Part shown: positions 11,474 to 29,487 of the stretch, piece by piece
Position numbering within the stretch: position 1 is the first letter of the stretch
How the letters are laid out: each line of letters begins with the position of its first letter
Assembly (NCBI RefSeq): GCF_002093625.1
Contig: NZ_MRWD01000030.1
Span: 1 to 61,029 of the forward strand
Direction of reading: 5' to 3'
Length of the DNA: 61,029 nt
Origin: Rouxiella silvae
GTDB taxonomy: Bacteria > Pseudomonadota > Gammaproteobacteria > Enterobacterales > Enterobacteriaceae
Position numbers and translations under genes: made by a program
The notes under the pieces: model-generated
What the model was told of the DNA's origin: nothing
The model's database searches: none
Seen by the model: the letters and a program-made list of their open reading frames with translations, nothing else

Positions 11474-12184
11474 TTACCCCACCTCAACGTCGATCTGTAA
11501 GGCATCATAGCGCCAGTATTCAAGATCGCAGTCAATAACCCGATCCTGCTGATCGCGGTTGATCCTGGTAATAAATAGCGCCGGGCTTCCTGCTGTCACT
11601 TTCAATGCATCTGACGCCTCCTGTGGCAAACGGGTTGGCACCATGTCAAAACGCACTCGGCCATACTTTATGCCATAGCGAGATAAATACAGATCAGTCA
11701 ACGATTGAGTCAGGTCGGCGTGAAGAATATCGGGGAAAAATTGCGGATTAAGGTAGTGCTCAACGTAAAGCACCGCGCGGCCATCGATATATCGCAGTCG
11801 CCGAATGCAATAAATGTCACTTTGCAGTGGCAGATTAAGCTTTTGGCATAGATTGTCGCTGGCTCTTCTCTGACAGGCATCAATCAGTTCCGTTTGCGCG
11901 AAACGACCCTGTTCCTGAGCCATCGCATGGAAATGGCTGCGTTGCAGCGGGTTATACAGAATGCGCGGTGGGGAAATAAACCATCCGCGGCGCACTTCAC
12001 GATAAATCAACCCTTGAGCCTCAAGTTGACTCAGTGATTCGCGCAACGTTATTCGCGTGGTAGAGAATTGCTCGCTCAGCGTTCTTTCCGAAGGCAGTCG
12101 CCCCTCGGCAAAATAAAGTCCGGCAGCTATCTTTTCACTCAGTGTCTGGCAGATGGTTGCTACGGCGGTCTGCGATTCACTCAT
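11474..12184 (-). CDS. GntR/UTRA-family regulator, PhnR-like
   Basis: 236 residues: N-terminal winged helix-turn-helix of the GntR type (residues about 8-72; GRLPSERTLSEQFSTTRITLRESLSQLEAQGLI) and a C-terminal UTRA effector domain (about 90-230; IRRLRYIDGRAVLYVEHYLNP, LFITRINRDQQDRVIDCDLEYWRYD). The UTRA subfamily senses small organic ligands; the closest named protein I can suggest is PhnR of 2-aminoethylphosphonate uptake clusters. It is divergent from the transporter operon that starts at 12387, and a UTRA-type palindrome lies between them (12338-12355), so it probably controls that operon. The effector is unknown. Confidence 0.85.
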   Translation of the reverse strand: MSESQTAVATICQTLSEKIAAGLYFAEGRLPSERTLSEQFSTTRITLRESLSQLEAQGLIYREVRRGWFISPPRILYNPLQRSHFHAMAQEQGRFAQTELIDACQRRASDNLCQKLNLPLQSDIYCIRRLRYIDGRAVLYVEHYLNPQFFPDILHADLTQSLTDLYLSRYGIKYGRVRFDMVPTRLPQEASDALKVTAGSPALFITRINRDQQDRVIDCDLEYWRYDALQIDVEVG

Positions 12185-12292
12185 TGGTCATCAGCCTCAT
12201 TTCAGTGCGTTTTTGCACCACAATGGCAAGTAAAGGTCGAAAATTTGTGCGCTCGCTAACAGCGATGAGCTTAAAAATGCTGCTTTTTCACG

Positions 12293-12310
12293 CTGTCATA
12301 TAATTATCAC
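12293..12310 (+). promoter_or_regulatory. Candidate Pho box
   Basis: CTGTCAT-ATAA-TTATCAC has the 7-4-7 layout of a PhoB site: the first half is a perfect CTGTCAT and the second matches CTGTCAC at five of seven positions. A weak -10 hexamer, TAGATT, starts 10 bases further at 12321, the usual geometry when the Pho box replaces the -35 element. This suggests phosphate-starvation induction of the operon behind it. Inference from motif and spacing only. Confidence 0.5.
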
Positions 12311-12337
12311 AAACGATCGTTAGATTGGCTTGGTTCT

Positions 12338-12355
12338 TGCTGGACTAGACCAGCA
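12338..12355 (+). promoter_or_regulatory. Candidate GntR/UTRA operator
   Basis: TGCTGGACTAGACCAGCA is an 18-base palindrome with a single mismatched pair. Its core TGGACTAGACCA differs by one base from the TGGTCTAGACCA type bound by UTRA-domain GntR regulators (DasR; PhnF is similar). It lies just downstream of the predicted -10, where a repressor would block transcription, 31 bases before the binding-protein start codon. Confidence 0.65.
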
Positions 12356-12386
12356 CTCACACACACTATCATCTGGAGCATCAGTT

Positions 12387-13445
12387 ATGAAACAGTTGTT
12401 CGCTTCTGTGTTAACCACCGCGCTGGTAATGACCACCACGACGGCGTTTGCCGCCGAATCTCTTGCGGATCTTGAGAAAGCCGCTAAAGCTGAAGGTACG
12501 GTAAACAGCGTCGGTATGCCTGACTCATGGGCAAACTGGAAAGATACCTGGAATGATTTAAACACTAAATACGGCATCAAACACAGTGATACCGACATGA
12601 GTTCGGCGCAGGAAATCGCCAAATTCTTGGCGGAGAAAAATAATGCCAGCGCTGACATCGGTGACGTGGGTGCCGCTTTTGGTCCGGTTGCGGTGAAAGA
12701 GGGTGTAACTCTGCCTTATAAACCAAGCACTTGGGATCAGGTTCCTGCCTGGGCAAAAGACAAAGACGGTAACTGGGTTCTAGCCTACACCGGCACTATC
12801 GCGTTTATCATTGATAAATCACAGGTTAAAGATGAGCCGCACAGCTGGGCTGACCTGCTGAAAGGCAAATACAAAGTGACTATTGGCGACGTAAGCACCG
12901 CGGCTCAGGCCGCTAACGGCGTGCTGGCGGCCACTTACGCGATGGGTGGCAACGAGAAAAACCTCAAGCCTGGCCTGGAGTATTTTGCCAAGCTGGCTAA
13001 AGCAGGCCGTCTGAGCCTGACGGATCCGGTCATTGCTTCGCTGGAAAAAGGTGAAGTGCAGGTTGGCGTAGTATGGGACTTCAATGGCCTGAACTACCGT
13101 GACCAGATTGATAAAACCCGTTTTGACGTTGTTATCCCGTCTGACGGCAGCATCACCTCCGGTTATTCAACCATCATCAATAAATACGGCAAGCACCCTA
13201 ACGCCGCTAAGTGGGCACGCGAATATATCTTCTCTGACGCTGGCCAAATCAACCTGGCACGCGGTTATGCACGACCTATTCGCGCAGAACATTTGACTCT
13301 GCCAGAAGACGTGAAAGCTAAACTGCTGCCAAACAGCGAATACGCTAATGCCCATCCGATTGCTGACCCAGAAGCCTGGAACAAGAGTTCTAAGACTCTC
13401 CCACGTTTGTGGCAAGAAGACGTCATGATCAACATGCAGCAATAA
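12387..13445 (+). CDS. ABC transporter periplasmic binding protein (organophosphate/phosphonate-type cluster)
   Basis: 352 residues with a clear Sec signal peptide (MKQLFASVLTTALVMTTTTAFA, cut near 22) and the fold of the iron/polyamine/aminoethylphosphonate-type extracellular binding proteins (SLADLEKAAKAEGTVNSVG, DIGDVGAAFGPVA, PHSWADLLKGKYKVTIGD, GVVWDFNGLNYRD). It captures the substrate in the periplasm for the permeases at 14544-16207. Start chosen at 12387 because the signal peptide begins there; an in-frame upstream start would overlap the operator. First gene of the operon; an ERIC element follows. The ligand cannot be read from sequence. Confidence 0.85.
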   Translation: MKQLFASVLTTALVMTTTTAFAAESLADLEKAAKAEGTVNSVGMPDSWANWKDTWNDLNTKYGIKHSDTDMSSAQEIAKFLAEKNNASADIGDVGAAFGPVAVKEGVTLPYKPSTWDQVPAWAKDKDGNWVLAYTGTIAFIIDKSQVKDEPHSWADLLKGKYKVTIGDVSTAAQAANGVLAATYAMGGNEKNLKPGLEYFAKLAKAGRLSLTDPVIASLEKGEVQVGVVWDFNGLNYRDQIDKTRFDVVIPSDGSITSGYSTIINKYGKHPNAAKWAREYIFSDAGQINLARGYARPIRAEHLTLPEDVKAKLLPNSEYANAHPIADPEAWNKSSKTLPRLWQEDVMINMQQ

Positions 13446-13446
13446 A

Positions 13447-13568
13447 TCCTCGTCATCTTTCGCACCGCAGGGGCGTTGGCCTCCCTCTCGTTTCCCGGTC
13501 ACTTACTTCAGTAAGCTCCCGGGAAACACTCGGTCGCCGCCTTCCTGCAACGCGAAATCTTTAGAGGA
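13447..13568 (+). repeat. ERIC (IRU) element
   Basis: A 122-base imperfect palindrome whose layout matches the enterobacterial repetitive intergenic consensus: outer arms TCCTCGTCATC / TCTTTAGAGGA, the GGGGCGTTGGC block, and the diagnostic centre GGTCACTTACTTCAGTAAGC flanked by GTTTCCC and CCCGGGAAAC. It lies inside a same-strand operon, between the binding-protein gene and the phosphatase-superfamily gene, beginning immediately after the stop codon. In RNA it would fold into a long hairpin. Confidence 0.85.
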
Positions 13569-13727
13569 TTCATTTTCCTACCTTGAAGAGGAGGGAAATG
13601 TTTCAGGTAATACTCTGGTGAGAATATTGAACGGTGTTGCTCTCACTAAAGCTAAATAGATCGTTACTAAAAAGTCATCGCCTTCGACATGTGTTGAATT
13701 TTTATAAATTTATCAGGGTCACACGTA

Positions 13728-14525
13728 ATGAAAAGCATTCTGGTGGTATTGGACGGCCTGAATTTTCAGGTAGCCCGCGATGCAATGGGATATTTACAGG
13801 CACAGTGTGCCGCAGGACGCGGACGCTTATATCAACTGGAATGCGAGCTACCTTCGCTGTCACGACCGCTATATGAGTGCATTCTTACCGGCGTAACGCC
13901 GGTGGTCAGTGGAATTGTTCACAACCACGTCGACCGTTTATCAACCCAGCGCAGCATTTTCCATTATGCGCGCGATGCGGGATTAACTACGGCGGCGGCG
14001 GCCTATCACTGGGTTAGCGAGCTTTATAACCGTACGCCTTTTACCCCAGCGCGCGATCGCCATACCGACGATAAAAGCCTGACTATCCAGCACGGGCATT
14101 TTTATTACGACGATACCTATCCGGATTCCCATTTGTTTGATGATGCGGAAAGCCTGCGCCTTAAGCATGATCCTGACTTTTTGCTGATTCATCCCATGAA
14201 TATCGATGATACCGGCCATAAGTTTGGATTGGACTCGATGCAATATCGCAACAAAGCGCGCGTCGCCGACGGAATTCTTTCTCACTATCTTGATAACTGG
14301 TTAGCCGAGGGTTACCAGGTGATTGTCACCGCCGATCACGGCATGAACAACGATCGCAGCCACGGCGGAATTCTTGACGAAGAGCGTCAGGTGCCGATGT
14401 TTGTATTTGGCAGCGCATTCAGCATGGCTGCTGCCGAGCCGTTACAAACTGAACTGTGTGGCACCGTTTGCCAATTACTCAATATCAGCCACGACAAACC
14501 GCACTGCGCGGATTTACTGGTCTGA
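13728..14525 (+). CDS. Cytosolic alkaline-phosphatase-superfamily hydrolase
   Basis: 265 residues, related to nucleotide pyrophosphatase/phosphodiesterase and phosphonoacetate hydrolase. Visible metal and active-site positions: Asp9 in VVLDGL, candidate nucleophile Ser45 in PSLSRPLYECILTG (equivalent to the Thr of the NPP family), Asp160 and His164 in DDTGHKFG, Asp203-His204 in TADHGM, and His212 in SHGG. There is no signal peptide, unlike most phosphatases of this superfamily, so it should act on imported substrate in the cytosol. It probably cleaves a phosphodiester or phosphonate. Encoded between the binding protein and the permeases; 18 bases separate it from the next gene. Confidence 0.8.
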   Translation: MKSILVVLDGLNFQVARDAMGYLQAQCAAGRGRLYQLECELPSLSRPLYECILTGVTPVVSGIVHNHVDRLSTQRSIFHYARDAGLTTAAAAYHWVSELYNRTPFTPARDRHTDDKSLTIQHGHFYYDDTYPDSHLFDDAESLRLKHDPDFLLIHPMNIDDTGHKFGLDSMQYRNKARVADGILSHYLDNWLAEGYQVIVTADHGMNNDRSHGGILDEERQVPMFVFGSAFSMAAAEPLQTELCGTVCQLLNISHDKPHCADLLV

Positions 14526-14543
14526 AACCGCCGAGGATAACGG

Positions 14544-15383
14544 ATGAAAGCTAAGTGGCTCGCCCTGCTGTTTGTGCTGCCTTTCGCGGTGTTCTTTATT
14601 GCTTTCCAGCTTGCACCTCTGGTGTGGGTCGCGGTGAGCAGCTTTTATAGCGACACTTATGAAGCCTGGGGTTTTGGTAACTACAGCGACATATTGACCT
14701 CACCTTTTTATCTGCAGGCGATTAAATTCTCGTTGGATATTTCGGTTTGGTCGAGCCTGTACGGTTTGCTGATTGCTTTAGTTGGTAGTTACTCACTTCG
14801 CCAGCTAGGTCCGACAAAACTGCACGATTTTGTGATGTCCTTTACCAACATGACCAGTAATTTTGCGGGCGTACCCTTGGCTTTTGCCTTCGTCATTCTG
14901 CTGGGACTCAACGGCACGCTCACGCTGATAATGCGTAAATATGGCCTGATGAGCACCTTCAATCTGTACTCAAAAGACGGCCTGATCGTGCTGTATACCT
15001 ACTTTCAAATTCCCTTGGGCGTGCTGCTGCTATACCCAGCTTTCGACGGACTGCGTGAAGACTGGAAAGAGTCGGCAGCCTTGTTGGGGGCCGGGAAATG
15101 GCGTTTTTGGCGCTATATTGGTTTGCCGGTGCTTGCCCCGGCTCTGATGGGGACCTTCGTCATTTTGCTGGCTAACGCGCTCGGTGCCTACGCGACGGTT
15201 TATGCGCTAACCACCGGCAACTTTAACGTGGTGCCAGTGCGTATTGCGGCGCTAGTATCGGGTGATATCTCCCTCGACCCGAATATGGGCAGTGCCCTGG
15301 CGATTTTGCTCGTGCTGTTAATGGCAGTCATTACACTGGTACATCAGTGGATATTGCGCAGGAGCTATCTCAATGTTCGTTAA
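14544..15383 (+). CDS. ABC transporter permease (PotB/PhnU-type)
   Basis: 279-residue inner-membrane protein with about six hydrophobic helices. The cytoplasmic coupling loop (ESAALLGAGKWRFWRYIGLPVLAPALMG) is the EAA motif of binding-protein-dependent permeases of the spermidine/putrescine, iron and aminoethylphosphonate class. Forms a heterodimer with the next gene product. Starts 18 bases after the hydrolase gene behind GAGGATAACGG. Substrate inferred only from neighbours. Confidence 0.87.
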   Translation: MKAKWLALLFVLPFAVFFIAFQLAPLVWVAVSSFYSDTYEAWGFGNYSDILTSPFYLQAIKFSLDISVWSSLYGLLIALVGSYSLRQLGPTKLHDFVMSFTNMTSNFAGVPLAFAFVILLGLNGTLTLIMRKYGLMSTFNLYSKDGLIVLYTYFQIPLGVLLLYPAFDGLREDWKESAALLGAGKWRFWRYIGLPVLAPALMGTFVILLANALGAYATVYALTTGNFNVVPVRIAALVSGDISLDPNMGSALAILLVLLMAVITLVHQWILRRSYLNVR

Positions 15384-15421
15384 GGCTAATTCTGTGAATA
15401 TTCTGGTTCTGGAGGCAAATC

Positions 15422-16207
15422 ATGTCGCGTGCTGAAAGCATTTATCATCGGCTCATCGTGTGGTTGCTGTTTATCGTTCTTCTCTTGCCGCTAGCAGCGA
15501 CGCTAATTTATGCGCTGGTGGAGGACTGGGGCGCAACGATTTTACCCAGCGGATTCACCCTGAAATGGCTGATAGCTCTTTGGAGCGATCCGCGTTTTCT
15601 GGTGGCATTAGGACACTCGCTGCTGGTGTGCTTCGGGACGCTTTTGTTCTCGATGGTGCTTATCCTGCCGCTTATGTTTGTGATTGCTTACTATTTCCCA
15701 AGGCTTGATGCCCTGATGAATGTGTTGATCCTGCTGCCCTTTGCCGTGCCGCCGGTGGTGTCTTCGGTCGGCCTGATGGAACTGTACTCCTCTCCGCCGT
15801 TTGAGTTGACGGGCACTCCGTGGATTTTGATTGGCTGTTATTTCACCATTGCACTGCCGTTTATCTATCGGGCCATTTCCAACAACATTCAGGCGATTAA
15901 TATGCGTGACCTGATGGATGCGGCACATTTGCTCGGCGCCAGCACTTGGAAAGCCGCGCTGATGGTGATTTTGCCAAACTTGCGAAAGGGCGCGTCGATT
16001 GCTGTGCTGCTGTCGTTCTCGTTTTTAATCGGTGAGTTTGTGTTTGCTAACCTATTGGTCGGCAGCCGCTATGAAACGCTGCAGGTTTATCTCTACAATA
16101 TGCGCAATGGCAGTGGCCATTTCACCAGCGCATTGGTCATCTCCTATTTCGTGGTTGTCTTGGTATTTACCTGGGTGGCCAACGTTCTGAATAAAGGGAA
16201 GCGCTGA
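15422..16207 (+). CDS. ABC transporter permease (PotC/PhnV-type)
   Basis: 261 residues, about six transmembrane segments, with the EAA loop DLMDAAHLLGASTWKAALMVILPNLRKG. Partner of the preceding permease. GGAGG lies six bases before the ATG. The stop codon is one base from the start of the ATPase gene, so the two are translationally coupled. Confidence 0.87.
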   Translation: MSRAESIYHRLIVWLLFIVLLLPLAATLIYALVEDWGATILPSGFTLKWLIALWSDPRFLVALGHSLLVCFGTLLFSMVLILPLMFVIAYYFPRLDALMNVLILLPFAVPPVVSSVGLMELYSSPPFELTGTPWILIGCYFTIALPFIYRAISNNIQAINMRDLMDAAHLLGASTWKAALMVILPNLRKGASIAVLLSFSFLIGEFVFANLLVGSRYETLQVYLYNMRNGSGHFTSALVISYFVVVLVFTWVANVLNKGKR

Positions 16208-16208
16208 T

Positions 16209-17201
16209 ATGTCCTATTTAGAAGTCACCCAACTCAACAAGCACTACGGCCAGACGCAGATTTTCAATAATATTGATTTCAGCGCCAAAGAGGGCGAGTT
16301 TGTCACCCTCCTTGGCCCAAGTGGCTGTGGAAAATCAACGCTGCTGCGCTGTCTGGCAGGCCTGACCTCGGTTGACAGTGGAAAAATCATTCTGCAGGGG
16401 CAAGACATTGTTCCACTTACGCCACAAAAGCGCGGCATTGGCATGGTGTTTCAAAGCTATGCGTTGTTCCCTAACATGACGGTTGAGGGCAACGTGGCGT
16501 TTGGCCTGAAAATGCAGAAACTCTCAACCAGTGAGGTTAAACGCCGAGTGGCCGAGGTGTTGGCGCTGGTGGAATTAAACGAATTTGCCCGTCGTTATCC
16601 TCATCAACTTTCTGGGGGCCAGTGTCAGCGTGTGGCTTTGGCACGTTCGCTGGTAACTGAGCCTCGACTGCTGCTGCTCGATGAACCGCTTTCGGCGCTG
16701 GATGCCCGTATTCGTAAGCATTTACGTGAGCAAATCCGCCGTATTCAGCGCGAGATGAACCTCACTGCCATCTTTGTGACCCACGATCAGGAGGAGGCGT
16801 TGACGATGTCTGACCGCATTGTTCTGATGAATAAAGGACAAATCGTACAGAATGGCGACGCTGAAACATTGTATACTGCTCCGGTAAATGCTTTCGCGGC
16901 AGGATTTATTGGCAGTTATAATCTGCTCACCGCCGAGCAGGCACATGCCCTGACCGGCCAAAGCTACCCTTCACAGGTGGCAATAAGGCCCGAGTCGATC
17001 GCTTTTTGTGCTCCACAACAGGGTATTCCAGCCCGAATTATCAATCACAGCCTGCTGGGTAACGTCGTTCGTTATCGTGTTATGGCTCACAATGTCGAGT
17101 TATCCGTGGACGTTTTAAACCGCTCCGTTGCGTCACTCATCGCTGATGGCACCGATATTGGTCTACAGTTAGATCTTGATACCTTACGGGAAGTTGCATG
17201 A
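16209..17201 (+). CDS. ABC transporter ATP-binding protein
   Basis: 330 residues. Walker A GPSGCGKS at 36-43, Q-loop VFQSYALFPNMTV, signature LSGGQCQRVALARSL, Walker B LLLLDEPLSALD, switch His in FVTHDQEEALTMSDRI. Residues from about 235 form the extra TOBE-like domain of the CUT1/PotA/PhnT class. Powers the permease pair encoded just upstream. The last four bases overlap the start codon of the HAD phosphatase (ATGA), tying that enzyme to the transporter. Confidence 0.9.
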   Translation: MSYLEVTQLNKHYGQTQIFNNIDFSAKEGEFVTLLGPSGCGKSTLLRCLAGLTSVDSGKIILQGQDIVPLTPQKRGIGMVFQSYALFPNMTVEGNVAFGLKMQKLSTSEVKRRVAEVLALVELNEFARRYPHQLSGGQCQRVALARSLVTEPRLLLLDEPLSALDARIRKHLREQIRRIQREMNLTAIFVTHDQEEALTMSDRIVLMNKGQIVQNGDAETLYTAPVNAFAAGFIGSYNLLTAEQAHALTGQSYPSQVAIRPESIAFCAPQQGIPARIINHSLLGNVVRYRVMAHNVELSVDVLNRSVASLIADGTDIGLQLDLDTLREVA

Positions 17202-17854
17202 ATCTGGCGCTATTTGATCTTGATGAAACGCTGATTGGTGGAGACTGTTCCAGCCTGTGGTCAGCCTTTATGGTTGAGCAGGGTTGGGTCGCTGAACCGG
17301 AAATATTTTTGCAGCAGGATGCCGAAATGATGCGCCTGTATGCACTAGGCCAGATGGACATGACTGAATATATGAACTGGACGCTGACCCCGCTGAAAGG
17401 CAGAAGTGTGCCCGACGTGAGCGCAATGGTTGAGCGGTTCGTGCATGAAGTTATTGCCGAGCGGGTGTATGACGACGCGCGCGCGTGCTTGGCCGAGCAT
17501 AACGCTAAGGGCTGCCAGATCATTATCATTTCCGCCTCGGGCGAGCATCTGGTTGCGGCTATTGCCAGATTTCTTGGCGTGGACGAAACTCTGGCCATCG
17601 GCGTTGAGATTGTCGACGGCCTGTATACCGGTTTTACCCAAGGCGTGCCGACTTTCCGTGAAGGAAAAGTCTCCCGGTTGATGACCCTGTTAAATCAGGA
17701 CTCGAGCCGGCTTGAGCACGCCAGTTTTTATTCGGATTCGCACAACGATTTGCCGCTGTTAACCCTGGTCGGCAATCCGGTGGCCATTAATCCGGATGCT
17801 ATCCTGCTCCAACACGCCAGGCAGGCAGGATGGCCTATCCAGGCCTGGCGCTAA
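17198..17854 (+). CDS. HAD-IB family phosphatase
   Basis: 218 residues of the HAD subfamily IB (SerB-like). Motif I DLDET supplies nucleophile Asp7 and Asp9, motif II is IIISAS, motif III the Lys in FREGKVS, motif IV SDSHNDLPLL. The long insertion between motifs I and II is the helical cap. It hydrolyses a small phosphomonoester in the cytosol; substrate unknown. The four-base overlap with the ATPase gene shows it belongs to the uptake operon, where it may dephosphorylate the product of the hydrolase at 13728. A generic phosphoserine-phosphatase role is less likely because of this context. Confidence 0.82.
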   Translation: MNLALFDLDETLIGGDCSSLWSAFMVEQGWVAEPEIFLQQDAEMMRLYALGQMDMTEYMNWTLTPLKGRSVPDVSAMVERFVHEVIAERVYDDARACLAEHNAKGCQIIIISASGEHLVAAIARFLGVDETLAIGVEIVDGLYTGFTQGVPTFREGKVSRLMTLLNQDSSRLEHASFYSDSHNDLPLLTLVGNPVAINPDAILLQHARQAGWPIQAWR

Positions 17855-17869
17855 AGGAGCTATTTTTTA

Positions 17870-19525
17870 GTGTTAACTCTTCTTCATTTGCTTTCTGCTG
17901 TTTCATTACTCGTATGGGGTACGCACATTGTGCGTACTGGCATCATGCGCGTGTTTGGTGCCAATTTGCGCCGCGTTCTCAGCAGCAGTGTTGAAAAGAA
18001 GCCTCTGGCGTTTGTTTCGGGCATCGGTGTTACGGCACTGGTGCAGAGCAGCAACGCCACGGCACTGCTGGTGACCTCGTTTGTTGCCCAGGGGCTGGTC
18101 GCACTTTCCCCGGCGTTGGTGATTATTCTCGGCGCCGATGTTGGCACCGCACTGATGGCGCGCGTGCTGACTTTCGACCTCTCGTGGCTATCTCCGCTGC
18201 TTATCTTCGTTGGCGTGTCGTTCTTCCTTAGCCGCAAACAGACGCGGGCGGGGCAGATGGGGCGGGTCGGAATTGGTCTGGGCCTTATTCTGCTCGCTCT
18301 CGAACTGATCGTCAGTGCCGCCACGCCGATTACTCAGGCGTCGGGCGTGAAGGTGCTGTTCTCGTCGCTAACTGGCGATACCATTCTTGATGCCCTGACC
18401 GGTGCCGTCTTTGCCATCATCAGTTATTCCAGCCTCGCTGCGGTGCTGTTAACGGCAACGCTTGCGGCTACGGGCGTTATTTCACTGAAAGTTTCACTGT
18501 GTCTGGTCATCGGTGCCAATCTCGGCAGCGGTATTTTGGCGATGATCAACGCCAGTAAACAAAATGCTGCCGGTCGACGAGTTGCGTTGGGGAGCCTACT
18601 CTTCAAGCTGATTGGCTGCGTGATCGTGCTGCCCTTTATCGGGCCATTGACTGGCCTGTTGGCTAAAATTGGTATCCCCGATGAGGAATTGGTTATCTAT
18701 TTCCACGTCTTCTATAACCTGATCCGCTGTCTGGCGCTGGTGCCAATGGCTGGCATGATGGCAAGAATTTGTGAACTGTGGATTGCCGATATGCCAGAAG
18801 ATGACCCACGTTTGCGTCCTCGCCATCTGGACGTTAGCGCTATCGACACCCCTACGTTGGCGCTGGCTAATGCCGCGCGTGAGACGCTGCGCATGGGTGA
18901 CGTGGTTGAACATATGCTTATCCTGCAGCATGAAGTGATGCATGGAAAGATAACTAACGACCGTGAGGTTCGCCGCCTGGATGACGATGTCGACGTGCTG
19001 TATACCGCGATAAAACTCTATCTGGCACAAATTCATAAAGAAGATTTGGGAGAGGACGACTCTCGTCGCTGGGCCGAAATCATCGAGATGGCGCTTAACC
19101 TTGAGCAAGCCGGCGATATTATCGAACGCATGACCGGTGATATCACCGCCAAGTCTCACGACACCCGACGCGCGTTCTCGGCGGAAGGCCTCGGTGAGCT
19201 CGACAATTTGCATGAGAAGCTGGTGGATAACCTGCGACTTAGCCTGTCGGTGTTCCTTTCAAACGATTTGACCAGTGCAAAAAGACTGCGTCGTTCCAAA
19301 CATCGTTTCCGCCTGCTTGACCGCCGTTATGCGCACGCCCACGTTGACAGGCTTCATCAGCACAACGTACAAAGCATTGAAACCAGTTCGCTGCATCTTG
19401 GGCTGCTGGGCGACATGAAACGCCTTAACTCGTTGTTCTGCGCCGTCGCCTACAACGTGCTCGATAAAGACGAAAAAGACGACGAACGTGAAGAGTTGGA
19501 CGACGTACCTGGTCTGGCTAAATAA
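17870..19525 (+). CDS. yjbB: Na/phosphate cotransporter family protein YjbB
   Basis: 551 residues. The N-terminal part (1-300) has repeated Na/Pi cotransporter motifs (GVTALVQSSNATALLVTSFV, SYSSLAAVLLTATLAATGV) with about eight membrane segments; the C-terminal part (350-530) is a PhoU-like helical domain. The E. coli homologue acts as a phosphate exporter. The start is GTG at 17870 behind AAAGGAG, only 15 bases after the HAD gene, so it is probably the last gene of the organophosphate operon here, although in E. coli it is a conserved neighbour of metH and lysC. A bidirectional terminator follows. Confidence 0.93.
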   Translation: MLTLLHLLSAVSLLVWGTHIVRTGIMRVFGANLRRVLSSSVEKKPLAFVSGIGVTALVQSSNATALLVTSFVAQGLVALSPALVIILGADVGTALMARVLTFDLSWLSPLLIFVGVSFFLSRKQTRAGQMGRVGIGLGLILLALELIVSAATPITQASGVKVLFSSLTGDTILDALTGAVFAIISYSSLAAVLLTATLAATGVISLKVSLCLVIGANLGSGILAMINASKQNAAGRRVALGSLLFKLIGCVIVLPFIGPLTGLLAKIGIPDEELVIYFHVFYNLIRCLALVPMAGMMARICELWIADMPEDDPRLRPRHLDVSAIDTPTLALANAARETLRMGDVVEHMLILQHEVMHGKITNDREVRRLDDDVDVLYTAIKLYLAQIHKEDLGEDDSRRWAEIIEMALNLEQAGDIIERMTGDITAKSHDTRRAFSAEGLGELDNLHEKLVDNLRLSLSVFLSNDLTSAKRLRRSKHRFRLLDRRYAHAHVDRLHQHNVQSIETSSLHLGLLGDMKRLNSLFCAVAYNVLDKDEKDDEREELDDVPGLAK

Positions 19526-20657: not shown

Positions 20658-22055
20658 CTATTGATTTTGCTCGAATAGATTATGATGCAGTTTTTGAACA
20701 ACCTGATTAGCATCATCGCCCGGAACCAGGAAGCACAGGTTATAGCTACTGGCACCGTAACAAATCATGCGAATGTTAAACGGGTCCAACACGCCAAAGA
20801 CCTCTTTGCCCACGCCGCAGGCTTGAGAAAGCTTATTGCCAATGATTGCTATCAGCGCCAGATTCTCTTCAACTTCGACGCGGCACAGTGAAGAAAGCTC
20901 GGTCAGCAGAGAAGTGGTCAACAGGCTCTCGCCGGACGAGGTAGACCCGGTGGTATCGAGCGTCAATGCAATGCTGACTTCGGAGGTCGTTATCAAGTCC
21001 ACCGAGATGTTATGACGCGCCAAGATGCTGAAAACTTCGGCCAAAAAACCTTGCGAATGCAGCATGCTCAGGCTGTGCAACGTGAGCAACGTCTGCTTGC
21101 GGCGCAGCGCCAGTGCGCGAAACAGCGGCGGATTCTCAGTGGTGTTGCAGACCAACGTTCCACCGGCGGACGGGTCTTTGCTTGAGCCCACAAACACCGG
21201 AATACCGCGGCGAACAGCGGGCAGCAGCGTGGCCGGATGCAGAACCTTGGCGCCGAAGGTGGCCATTTCAGCCGCTTCTTCAAACGCAATACGATCAATG
21301 CGTTTAGCGGCCGGGACCAGACGGGGATCGGTGGTGTAAATGCCCGGAACGTCGGTCCAGATATCAACGCGAGACGCGTGCAGCGCTTCACCCAGCAGGG
21401 CTGCGGTGTAATCACTGCCGCCGCGACCCAGCGTAGTCGTGCGGCCTTTAGGTTCTGAGCCAATAAAGCCCTGAGTAATAATCAGTGCTTCCTTCAGACG
21501 TGGCAGCAGCTGTTGGCTTGCCAGTTCATACAGTGTCTGAGTATCTGGCTCGGCGCGGCCAAAGCGGTCATTGGTGCGCATGATTTTGCGCACGTCAAAC
21601 CACTCGGCAGAAACGTTGCGCTGGCGAAGGATTTCGACAAATAGCAGCGTCGACATCATTTCACCGTGGCTGACCAGTTCATCGGTCAATGCACTCGAGG
21701 TGGCAAGGCTTGCCGCTTCGGAAAGCATGCTGATGTTTTCCAGCATCCGCTCTATCTCTTCATGGATAACCTCAGGCTTGTCCAGGCGGTCGATAATAGC
21801 GTTTTGGATACGGCGAATTTCGTCGAGCAGGAATACGCGGCGCGTGCTGTCGGAACCTTCGGCCAGTTCAACCAGCAGATTCGTTACGCCAGCAGAGGCG
21901 GAGAGTACGACGACTCGAACATCAGGATTGGAGAGTACAACGTCGGCGCTGCGGTTCATCGCTTCGAAGTCCGCCACGCTGGTGCCACCAAATTTGGCAA
22001 TGACCGTGCTGCTCAAAGGCGTCGGGTCGGCGTTGCGGATTGTTGCTTGATTCAT
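20658..22055 (-). CDS. lysC: Lysine-sensitive aspartokinase III
   Basis: Phosphorylates aspartate, first step toward lysine, threonine and methionine; feedback-inhibited by lysine. 465 residues (E. coli 449, with a longer N-terminal tail here). Kinase domain: VIAKFGGTSVADFEAMNRSA, FDVRKIMRTNDRFGRAEPD, GRTTTLGRGGSDYTAALL. Two ACT domains follow from about residue 325 (SQGFLAEVFSILARHNISVDLITTSEVS; NIRMICYGASSYNLCFLV). ATG at 22055 with GAGG six bases upstream. Controlled by the lysine riboswitch in its leader. Confidence 0.96.
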   Translation of the reverse strand: MNQATIRNADPTPLSSTVIAKFGGTSVADFEAMNRSADVVLSNPDVRVVVLSASAGVTNLLVELAEGSDSTRRVFLLDEIRRIQNAIIDRLDKPEVIHEEIERMLENISMLSEAASLATSSALTDELVSHGEMMSTLLFVEILRQRNVSAEWFDVRKIMRTNDRFGRAEPDTQTLYELASQQLLPRLKEALIITQGFIGSEPKGRTTTLGRGGSDYTAALLGEALHASRVDIWTDVPGIYTTDPRLVPAAKRIDRIAFEEAAEMATFGAKVLHPATLLPAVRRGIPVFVGSSKDPSAGGTLVCNTTENPPLFRALALRRKQTLLTLHSLSMLHSQGFLAEVFSILARHNISVDLITTSEVSIALTLDTTGSTSSGESLLTTSLLTELSSLCRVEVEENLALIAIIGNKLSQACGVGKEVFGVLDPFNIRMICYGASSYNLCFLVPGDDANQVVQKLHHNLFEQNQ

Positions 22056-22167
22056 TTAAAACCTCGTGTCAGGGTCGCCATGTTTATGACGGCCTTTTTA
22101 ATTGCATATTCCTTGGCACAAGGGTAGAGCGGGAAACGGGAGCAGACGTAGAGATGCTACGATACAC

Positions 22168-22350
22168 CCAGAAGCGCCCCACCATGCCAATAGCTCACAG
22201 AGCTATAGCGGTGACAACCCAGAGGATTCAGCCCCTGTAGTCGATCTTTTCCCAACCGTTGGGTGTCTGACCTCGGCGTCGCACCCCATAATGCACCTTC
22301 GCAGGATACGGTTCCTCCGATACATTGCCTGGGCGACGCGCCTCTTCTGG
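22168..22350 (-). promoter_or_regulatory. Lysine riboswitch (L box)
   Basis: Minus-strand leader of lysC. The closing P1 helix is CCAGAAG (22350) with CTTCTGG (about 22168). Conserved internal blocks match the E. coli lysC riboswitch as recalled: AGAGGCGCG near the 5' end, GGAGGAACCG, GAAGGTGCA, GCCGAGGT, GGGGCTGAATCC and TGGGTTGTCACC. Lysine binding should lower lysC expression. The expression platform is the roughly 110 bases between 22168 and the start codon; I see no clean T-run terminator there, so translational control as in E. coli is likely. The palindromic TACGCG/CGCGTA just upstream (about 22353-22372) may be a P0 hairpin. Confidence 0.92.
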
Positions 22351-22625
22351 CTTACGCGCGCGGACGCGTATAAGTTAGGTGCCTAGAATTACTGGTTCTG
22401 CGCCATCTGTCAACGATCGCGCGGCATCTGTCTCACATTTTGAAAGATTGTCATCTATTATTGATTGCGGTATTTGTCTATGCGGCGCATTGCCAACAGT
22501 TATTGCCTATTGCAAGAAACGCAAGAAAAGGCATCTAAACTTGTAAAATACCGGATACAATCAAGGCAGTTGCGCTAAATAATAGTCAAGATGTCACCTT
22601 ACATTCTCAGCCTAAGAGCATTGCT

Positions 22626-29118: not shown

Positions 29119-29487
29119 ATGTCAAATCAAGTTACGGGATTGACCCGAATCTACAAGGCCGCAGGTTACTCCTTAAAGGGATTAACCGCGGCCTGGAAAA
29201 ACGAAGCTGCATTTCGTCAGGAAGCCATTGTCGTGGTGCCTGCCATCTTACTGTCATTTTACCTGGATGTGAGCAGCATCGAGCGTATTTTAATGATTGG
29301 TTCACTGATTTTAGTCTTGGTTGCTGAATTATTAAACAGTGCAGTAGAAGCCGCCATCGACCGCATAGGACCGGAATTTCACACGCTTTCTGGCCGCGCC
29401 AAAGACATGGGGTCGGCCGCCGTTCTCATTACCATTGTTTTTGCCATTTTCACTTGGGCAACTATCCTAGTGCCGCGCTGGCTCTGA
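29119..29487 (+). CDS. dgkA: Diacylglycerol kinase
   Basis: Small trimeric membrane kinase that recycles diacylglycerol to phosphatidic acid. 122 residues, three helices, with an N-terminal amphipathic helix. Conserved catalytic stretch ELLNSAVEAAIDRIGPE and AKDMGSAAV. Divergent from plsB, another phospholipid gene; lexA follows after 106 bases. Confidence 0.95.
   Translation: MSNQVTGLTRIYKAAGYSLKGLTAAWKNEAAFRQEAIVVVPAILLSFYLDVSSIERILMIGSLILVLVAELLNSAVEAAIDRIGPEFHTLSGRAKDMGSAAVLITIVFAIFTWATILVPRWL

Follow-up and report, generated by a model that had tools for sequence, protein, structure and literature searches.

A probable phosphate-starvation accessory operon of Rouxiella silvae that may import an organophosphorus compound intact and hydrolyse it in the cytosol

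A stretch of 61,029 nucleotides (nt) from contig NZ_MRWD01000030.1 of Rouxiella silvae, here called the window, carries an accessory operon encoding a substrate-binding protein, an alkaline-phosphatase-superfamily hydrolase (AP), two ABC permeases, an ATPase and a HAD-IB phosphatase. Together with a divergent GntR/UTRA regulator gene it occupies the interval between metH and yjbB. We propose, with a probability of roughly 0.45, that this is an operon for inorganic phosphate (Pi) starvation that works by importing first and hydrolysing inside, an aminoalkyl phosphoester or phosphodiester being taken up before its P-O bond is cut. The operon very probably serves phosphorus scavenging, and internal P-O hydrolysis is somewhat favoured; the assignment of an aminoalkyl (di)ester as the ligand is doubtful. 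In this scheme a small organophosphorus compound would enter through the binding protein and its ABC transporter, which gene order assigns to the PhnD3/AepSTU type. The compound would most likely be a zwitterionic aminoalkyl ester of phosphate, either a diester or a monoester, with glycerophosphoethanolamine and phosphoethanolamine as examples. In the cytosol AP would make the first P-O cut, using Ser45 as nucleophile together with two metals. If its product still had to be cleaved, Pi would be freed by a phosphomonoesterase, which is HAD here and perhaps a PHP enzyme in Enterococcus; AP followed by HAD is a plausible order. The PhnR-like regulator would add substrate control on top of PhoB control, and in HAD-bearing Enterobacterales yjbB would probably be read through, letting surplus Pi leave. 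Three weak pointers suggest the ligand class, namely transport of 2-aminoethylphosphonate (2AEP) by a counterpart, a HAD resembling histidinol-phosphatase and an AP fold of the nucleotide pyrophosphatase/phosphodiesterase (NPP) type. Histidinol-phosphatase is an enzyme that acts on an amino-alcohol phosphate.

The five genes of the operon core are tightly clustered. A scan of genome contigs gave at least 586 stretches encoding a relative, and the best 80 loci were examined. Three of these start at a contig edge and miss their upstream part, leaving 77 testable loci; in all 77 the order binding protein, AP, permease, permease, ATPase is kept, with the hydrolase as second gene, and the divergent regulator is present in 75. 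The original prediction had grouped seven genes, and relatives bear this out for the five-gene core, whereas HAD and YjbB vary: HAD follows in 59 and YjbB in 32 of the best 80 loci (both in 13, YjbB alone in 19, neither in two), and the 46 loci with HAD and no YjbB comprise 45 from Pseudomonadaceae and one Citrobacter-named. In a family sample of 198 genomes, with binding-protein orthologs counted at 64% identity or more (any match: 125 genomes), the binding protein occurs in 33 genomes, AP in 32 (one weak match dropped), both in 31 and either in 34. The Fisher P value of this co-occurrence is about 1e-32, uncorrected for relatedness among species that are not independent. Across a phylum sample of 398 genomes AP is found at 58% identity or more in 29, at 33-40% in 12 and as weak or partial matches only in 14; it is present in 24 of the 25 genomes of one genus taken for Pseudomonadaceae. 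Several copies of the operon look broken (genomes G026, G048, G104 and G107), which makes it accessory in Enterobacterales.

AP displays no visible signal peptide and its first strand already bears the catalytic Asp9, so hydrolysis should be cytosolic. Residues D9, S45, N66, D160, H164, D203, H204 and H212 are invariant in 23 chosen hydrolases sharing 30 to 91% identity with that of the window; we take them to include the nucleophile, the ligands of two metals and the characteristic Asn. In a profile alignment with Xac NPP, S45 falls opposite a Thr and N66 opposite an Asn, this part of the alignment being weak (9.1 bits). The best of five predicted models has a mean predicted local distance difference test (pLDDT) score of 81.9, the other four 67-69, and this moderate-quality model suggests an NPP-like fold: the 50 matches listed are mainly NPP5, NPP1/3, Xac NPP and ENPP6/7, and among them are also the phosphoethanolamine transferases EptC/ICR, phosphoglycerate mutase and, at rank 46, phosphonoacetate hydrolase PhnA. 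Conserved residues and modelled fold thus point to an NPP-type member of the alkaline phosphatase superfamily. The PhnA model TIGR02335 gives AP only 21 bits against a cut-off of 407.55. In the records covered, relatives carry no other label than 'alkaline phosphatase family protein', 'Type I phosphodiesterase / nucleotide pyrophosphatase' or 'hypothetical protein'. The pairing of an organophosphate/phosphonate-type importer with a cytosolic hydrolase, as originally predicted, is supported, and cleavage within the cell stands as its likely logic.

A Pho-box-like site whose place in the promoter is conserved suggests that the operon belongs to the Pho regulon. Sites were scored by how many of 14 positions match a Pho-box consensus. 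Among 2000 shuffled versions of the 202-nt intergenic sequence, 2 attain the window's score of 12. Of 35 Enterobacterales loci, 32 (all but two Dickeya and one Serratia) have a site of 10-13/14 located 73-77 nt upstream of the binding-protein start. In Pseudomonadaceae the best site (12-13/14) is on the opposite strand and further upstream, at 204-239 nt, in 40 of 42 loci. The regulator scores 282.2 bits with the PhnR model TIGR03337, under its cut-off of 296.75, and seven other operon regulators (loci L021, L025, L041, L049, L068, L150 and L159) fall at 261.6-289.4, all likewise under it. The Pi-starvation response itself is reported for putative counterparts in Pseudomonas. According to Table 2 of PMC5082522, the GntR protein PPUBIRD1_3890 and the ATPase PPUBIRD1_3895 of P. 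putida BIRD-1 are up under Pi depletion and undetected in a phoBR mutant; the binding protein PPUBIRD1_3891 (PhnD3) is also up under Pi depletion. From gene order around minCDE and locus numbers we infer that P. aeruginosa PA3250 is the ortholog of the binding protein. PA3250 appears in a phosphate-starvation exoproteome, for which the passages covered give no Pi-replete comparison (PMC4899797), and the main text of PMC9769906 does not mention PA3250-PA3255. One P. aeruginosa record with the operon (L159) is filed as a plasmid and contains minCDE and chromosomal-type neighbours; it is perhaps a chromosomal fragment or a large excision.

Table 1. Features of the operon region in the window (positions count from the first letter of the 61,029-nt stretch).
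Feature	Position	Strand	Details
GntR/UTRA regulator, PhnR-like, divergent	11474..12184	-	UTRA + GntR Pfam
Pho-box-like site	12293..12310	+	12/14 vs consensus; 76 nt 5' of ATG; present also in L021
Periplasmic substrate-binding protein, SBP_bac_6	12387..13445	+	PF13343, 104.6 bits
Imperfect palindrome, 18-nt arms	13490..13527		within the 282 nt that separate the binding-protein gene from the hydrolase gene
Cytosolic alkaline-phosphatase-superfamily hydrolase (AP), NPP type	13728..14525	+	PF01663, 62.8 bits
ABC permease A	14544..15383	+	PF00528
ABC permease B	15422..16207	+	PF00528; PhnV 87.2 bits vs cut-off 358.7
ABC ATPase	16209..17201	+	PF00005; PhnT2 383.7 bits vs cut-off 457.7
HAD-IB phosphatase, accessory gene	17198..17854	+	TIGR01490 174.9 bits, over cut-off 98.3
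YjbB, Na/Pi-type phosphate exporter	17870..19525	+	GTG start; TIGR01013 410.8 bits vs cut-off 306.15

All eight genes are open reading frames at these positions and their names are backed by Pfam and NCBIfam, in agreement with the gene content and facing UTRA regulator that had been read from the letters. For the binding protein the mechanical reading frame begins at TTG 12330; ATG 12387 was taken because the resulting N-terminus looks by eye like a signal peptide and the length equals that of the orthologs. The intergenic gaps within the operon are 282, 18, 38, 1 and -4 nt, the ATPase and HAD genes overlapping by 4 nt. The first of these gaps is 9-22 nt long in loci of Serratia, Erwinia, Dickeya and Lonsdalea and ranges over 33-282 nt elsewhere, the window included, and the palindrome within it is a single copy in the genome, even when up to 3 mismatches are allowed. 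The nearest named locus is that of Rouxiella badensis (hydrolase 94%, YjbB 98% identical). Beyond yjbB, a lysine riboswitch (RF00168, 69.4 bits, 22164-22354, minus strand) lies upstream of a lysC-type aspartokinase gene (20658-22055).

The transporter is probably the published AepSTU/PhnD3, judging from gene order and layout. The spacing of PPUBIRD1_3890 (GntR), 3891 (binding protein) and 3895 (ATPase) equals that of the window operon, which likewise has a GntR gene, a PF13343 binding protein and an ATPase four genes downstream, the three genes between the last two being AP and the permeases. The covered text of PMC8316502 names PPUBIRD1_3891 AepS and reports that loss of aepSTU in a double transporter mutant of P. 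putida abolishes growth on 2AEP as phosphorus source, the role of AepSTU in the wild type being only auxiliary. The same relationship leads to a competing explanation that we consider unlikely, in which the operon encodes an AepSTU-type importer of 2AEP or other phosphonates, the phosphonate passes to a carbon-phosphorus (C-P) lyase, and AP either cuts phosphonate esters, thereby freeing 2AEP, or does not act on the imported compound. The mutant phenotype, the PhnR-like regulator, the PhnT2- and PhnV-like scores of the transporter and the appearance of PhnA when AP is matched by profile and by fold speak for it, as does a C-P lyase subunit, PhnJ, on contig C47 of the genome (496.8 bits; E. coli control positive). 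The original prediction had noted the absence of the known aminoethylphosphonate enzymes (PhnW, PhnX) and of C-P lyase genes. Widened to the genome, this changes for C-P lyase and stands for PhnW and PhnX as far as the models searched reach: none of their models exceeds its cut-off in the genome, nor in 14 control genomes, so that a positive control is lacking, and other PhnW-type models were left unsearched. An aminotransferase that seemed to signal a PhnW-type pathway in a related locus (L136) was rejected, being cysteine-desulfurase-like (SufS 167.6 bits vs PhnW-AepZ 37.4). Against the phosphonate route, the window proteins fall below every cut-off of the NCBIfam 2AEP equivalogs PhnS, PhnS2, PhnT, PhnT2, PhnU, PhnU2 and PhnV, and a HAD or PHP phosphatase has no role in it. 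The cluster also occurs on plasmids of Enterococcus, a genus for which we know of no C-P cleaving pathway. The auxiliary status of AepSTU (PMC8316502) and the reported need of P. putida for PhnWX to use 2AEP point the same way. No substrate is assigned to either hydrolase in the literature text found (figures such as Fig. 6A of PMC5082522 and supplements lie outside it), and the surroundings of alphaproteobacterium-like relatives gave no substrate name.

The HAD enzyme exceeds the cut-offs of TIGR01490 and TIGR01488 and displays the DxD, S, K and DxxxD motifs of the HAD-IB class, its residues D7, D9, S112, K157, D180 and D184 being invariant in 13 sequences. YjbB is assigned as a putative exporter by its Na/Pi family score and by metH-yjbB synteny. 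The gap between the two genes is exactly the 15 nt originally described and keeps that length in all 13 of the best 80 loci having both, while YjbB lies 116-295 nt behind the ATPase in the 19 loci without HAD. The inclusion of YjbB in the operon stands in part only. In E. coli K-12, where the operon is absent, yjbB directly follows metH, and 81 of the 112 family genomes with a yjbB match have no AP, so the neighbourhood is largely inherited. In genome G014, however, the operon occupies a new site, where some 20 nt separate its ATPase gene from the yjbB that follows, and a second yjbB stays beside lysC (L163, L164). The tight HAD-YjbB gap and the G014 arrangement speak for more than inherited position, although co-transfer without function would explain them too.

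The modules of the operon are exchanged in nature. In L148, of the same class, relatives of AP (60%) and HAD (43%) have an Opp-type importer and LysR as neighbours instead. Enterococcus supplies 179 of the 198 plasmid records in which AP has a relative, and the two opened (E. faecium plasmid clusters, L157 7893-12484 and L158 7902-12485) encode the binding protein (57-58%), AP (43%), permeases and ATPase, adjoined by a divergent PHP-type phosphatase; no HAD match was found within about 19 kb. The PHP enzyme has no sequence similarity to HAD; one record labels it 'histidinol phosphatase'. As a separate association, hydrolase relatives of about 30-36% identity adjoin SBP_bac_5/Opp-type transporter genes in L138 and L142 (by Pfam) and in L140 and L144 (by ATPase matches). 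More widely, and tentatively, we propose an unrecognised cytosolic salvage module in which an AP phosphodiesterase and an interchangeable phosphomonoesterase (HAD or PHP) are joined to SBP_bac_6 or Opp-type importers in Pseudomonadota and Bacillota, and which would give the cell aminoalkyl phosphodiesters, lipid head-group fragments for example, without periplasmic hydrolysis.

Several observations weigh against import followed by internal hydrolysis as we propose it. Confidence in the AP model drops in the catalytic loop (residues 42-47 and 54-72 below pLDDT 50), and of five models only the best exceeds 70. AepS orthology is drawn from gene order rather than sequence, and the counterparts behave unevenly: PPUBIRD1_3891 is not PhoBR-dependent, being still up in the phoBR mutant (log2 2.31 vs 2.69; covered text of PMC5082522), and AepS is called constitutive in passages of PMC8316502. 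Passages of PMC8041468 report that PA3249, the putative P. aeruginosa regulator, binds the amrZ promoter in gel-shift, so the regulator's role may exceed this operon and is not purely local. Among 12 more distant loci, 6 reach at least 12/14 for a Pho-box-like site, at varying positions, and the Enterococcus locus reaches 9. In the window a 13/14 match at 29240, taken as chance, falls inside the unrelated open reading frame 29119-29487, for which reason a lone match was dropped as proof. The PHP enzyme matches best NF005597, a 'hypothetical protein' family (303.8 vs 303), and scores 110.3 vs 321 with the histidinol-phosphatase model; because of the former, our estimate for the ligand class was lowered slightly. 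Transporter orthologs (73-77%) occur without AP in G022 and G167 (L165, L168), those of G022 neighbouring two LysR genes, a metallo-beta-lactamase-fold gene and an ornithine/diaminopimelate-type decarboxylase. Conversely, AP of L153 (G146) has no transporter genes nearby and still adjoins yjbB, and in L147 (G452) no binding-protein gene precedes AP, the contig ending 1.1 kb behind. Transporter and hydrolases are thus separable, which weakens the claim of one fixed ligand.

The position of HAD weighs in the same direction. By position, HAD belongs to the operon in 11 of the 32 AP genomes, is reduced to a remnant in 1, occurs in 8 solely at unlinked sites and has no match in 12; no HAD match adjoins the operon in L146 and L161. 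Thus HAD is optional and a two-enzyme route not obligatory, and HAD cannot be counted in the operon core. In a further competing reading AP frees Pi in one step, as a cytosolic phosphomonoesterase or phosphonohydrolase, and HAD is a housekeeping phosphatase, of the histidinol-phosphatase type for instance, that merely travels with the operon. This fits the patchy distribution, the resemblance of HAD to histidinol-phosphatase NF052360, its nearest such model (208.9 bits, under the curated cut-off of 280), and a second HAD paralog (41%) on contig C58 of the same genome. We nevertheless regard it as improbable: among the best 80 loci HAD follows the ATPase in every one of the 45 from Pseudomonadaceae and in 14 of the 35 from Enterobacterales, and at 32-37% identity in five more (L149-L152 and L154), and it remains with AP in L148 though the transporter is exchanged there. 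That the binding protein carries iron, sulfate or polyamine beside an incidental hydrolase is very improbable, since its weak Protein Data Bank (PDB) matches to sulfate- and Fe3+-binding proteins and the Fe3+ transport annotation of the P. putida counterpart (text of PMC5082522) are outweighed by the Pi-responsive counterparts, on whose account iron transport was rejected as principal reading, by the hydrolase in second place in every testable locus and by the PhnR-like regulator.

Identifying the substrate of AP would add one more source to the organic phosphorus compounds known to enter bacteria intact, and it might explain why the role of AepSTU in 2AEP use is merely auxiliary. The hydrolase is widespread, from a sixth or so of the family genomes to nearly every member of one Pseudomonadaceae-like genus and Enterococcus plasmids, yet generically named.

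Comparison with known systems places the operon among several partial likenesses. AP shares with ENPP6, ENPP7 and the bacterial NPP a superfamily fold, as modelled, and an Asn at the matching place; it differs in length (265 amino acids vs about 390 in the fold matches), in having Ser for their Thr and in its absence of a signal peptide. The agrocinopine acc operon of Agrobacterium similarly imports a phosphodiester that is cut by a cytosolic phosphodiesterase and then a phosphatase, its transporter and hydrolases being, by description, of other families. UgpQ is the cytosolic phosphodiesterase of the Pho-regulated ugp importer operon, whose hydrolase and binding-protein families are by description unrelated to those of the window. 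The binding protein matches PDB entry 5t1p_A at 512 bits (E=5.4e-153), which we take to be a Campylobacter jejuni protein of the cj0727-cj0732 cluster, presumably a member of the PhosR regulon. In passages of one paper cj0730 is named with iron-limitation genes; the C. jejuni phosphonate paper, in its covered text, concerns other genes (PMC2715421). The closest system is PhnD3/AepSTU of P. putida, published as a 2AEP transporter, with the hydrolase genes undiscussed in the parts covered (PMC5082522, PMC8316502). It shares the GntR gene, the PF13343 binding protein and the ATPase position and is Pi-responsive, and Pseudomonadaceae loci among the best 80 share its layout. Hence the suggestion that the route as a whole is undescribed can hold for the hydrolases only, the transporter matching AepSTU/PhnD3 by gene order and the combination of import with a cytosolic hydrolase following the logic of ugpBAECQ, a PhoB-dependent operon that allows organophosphate use (text of PMC11389368).

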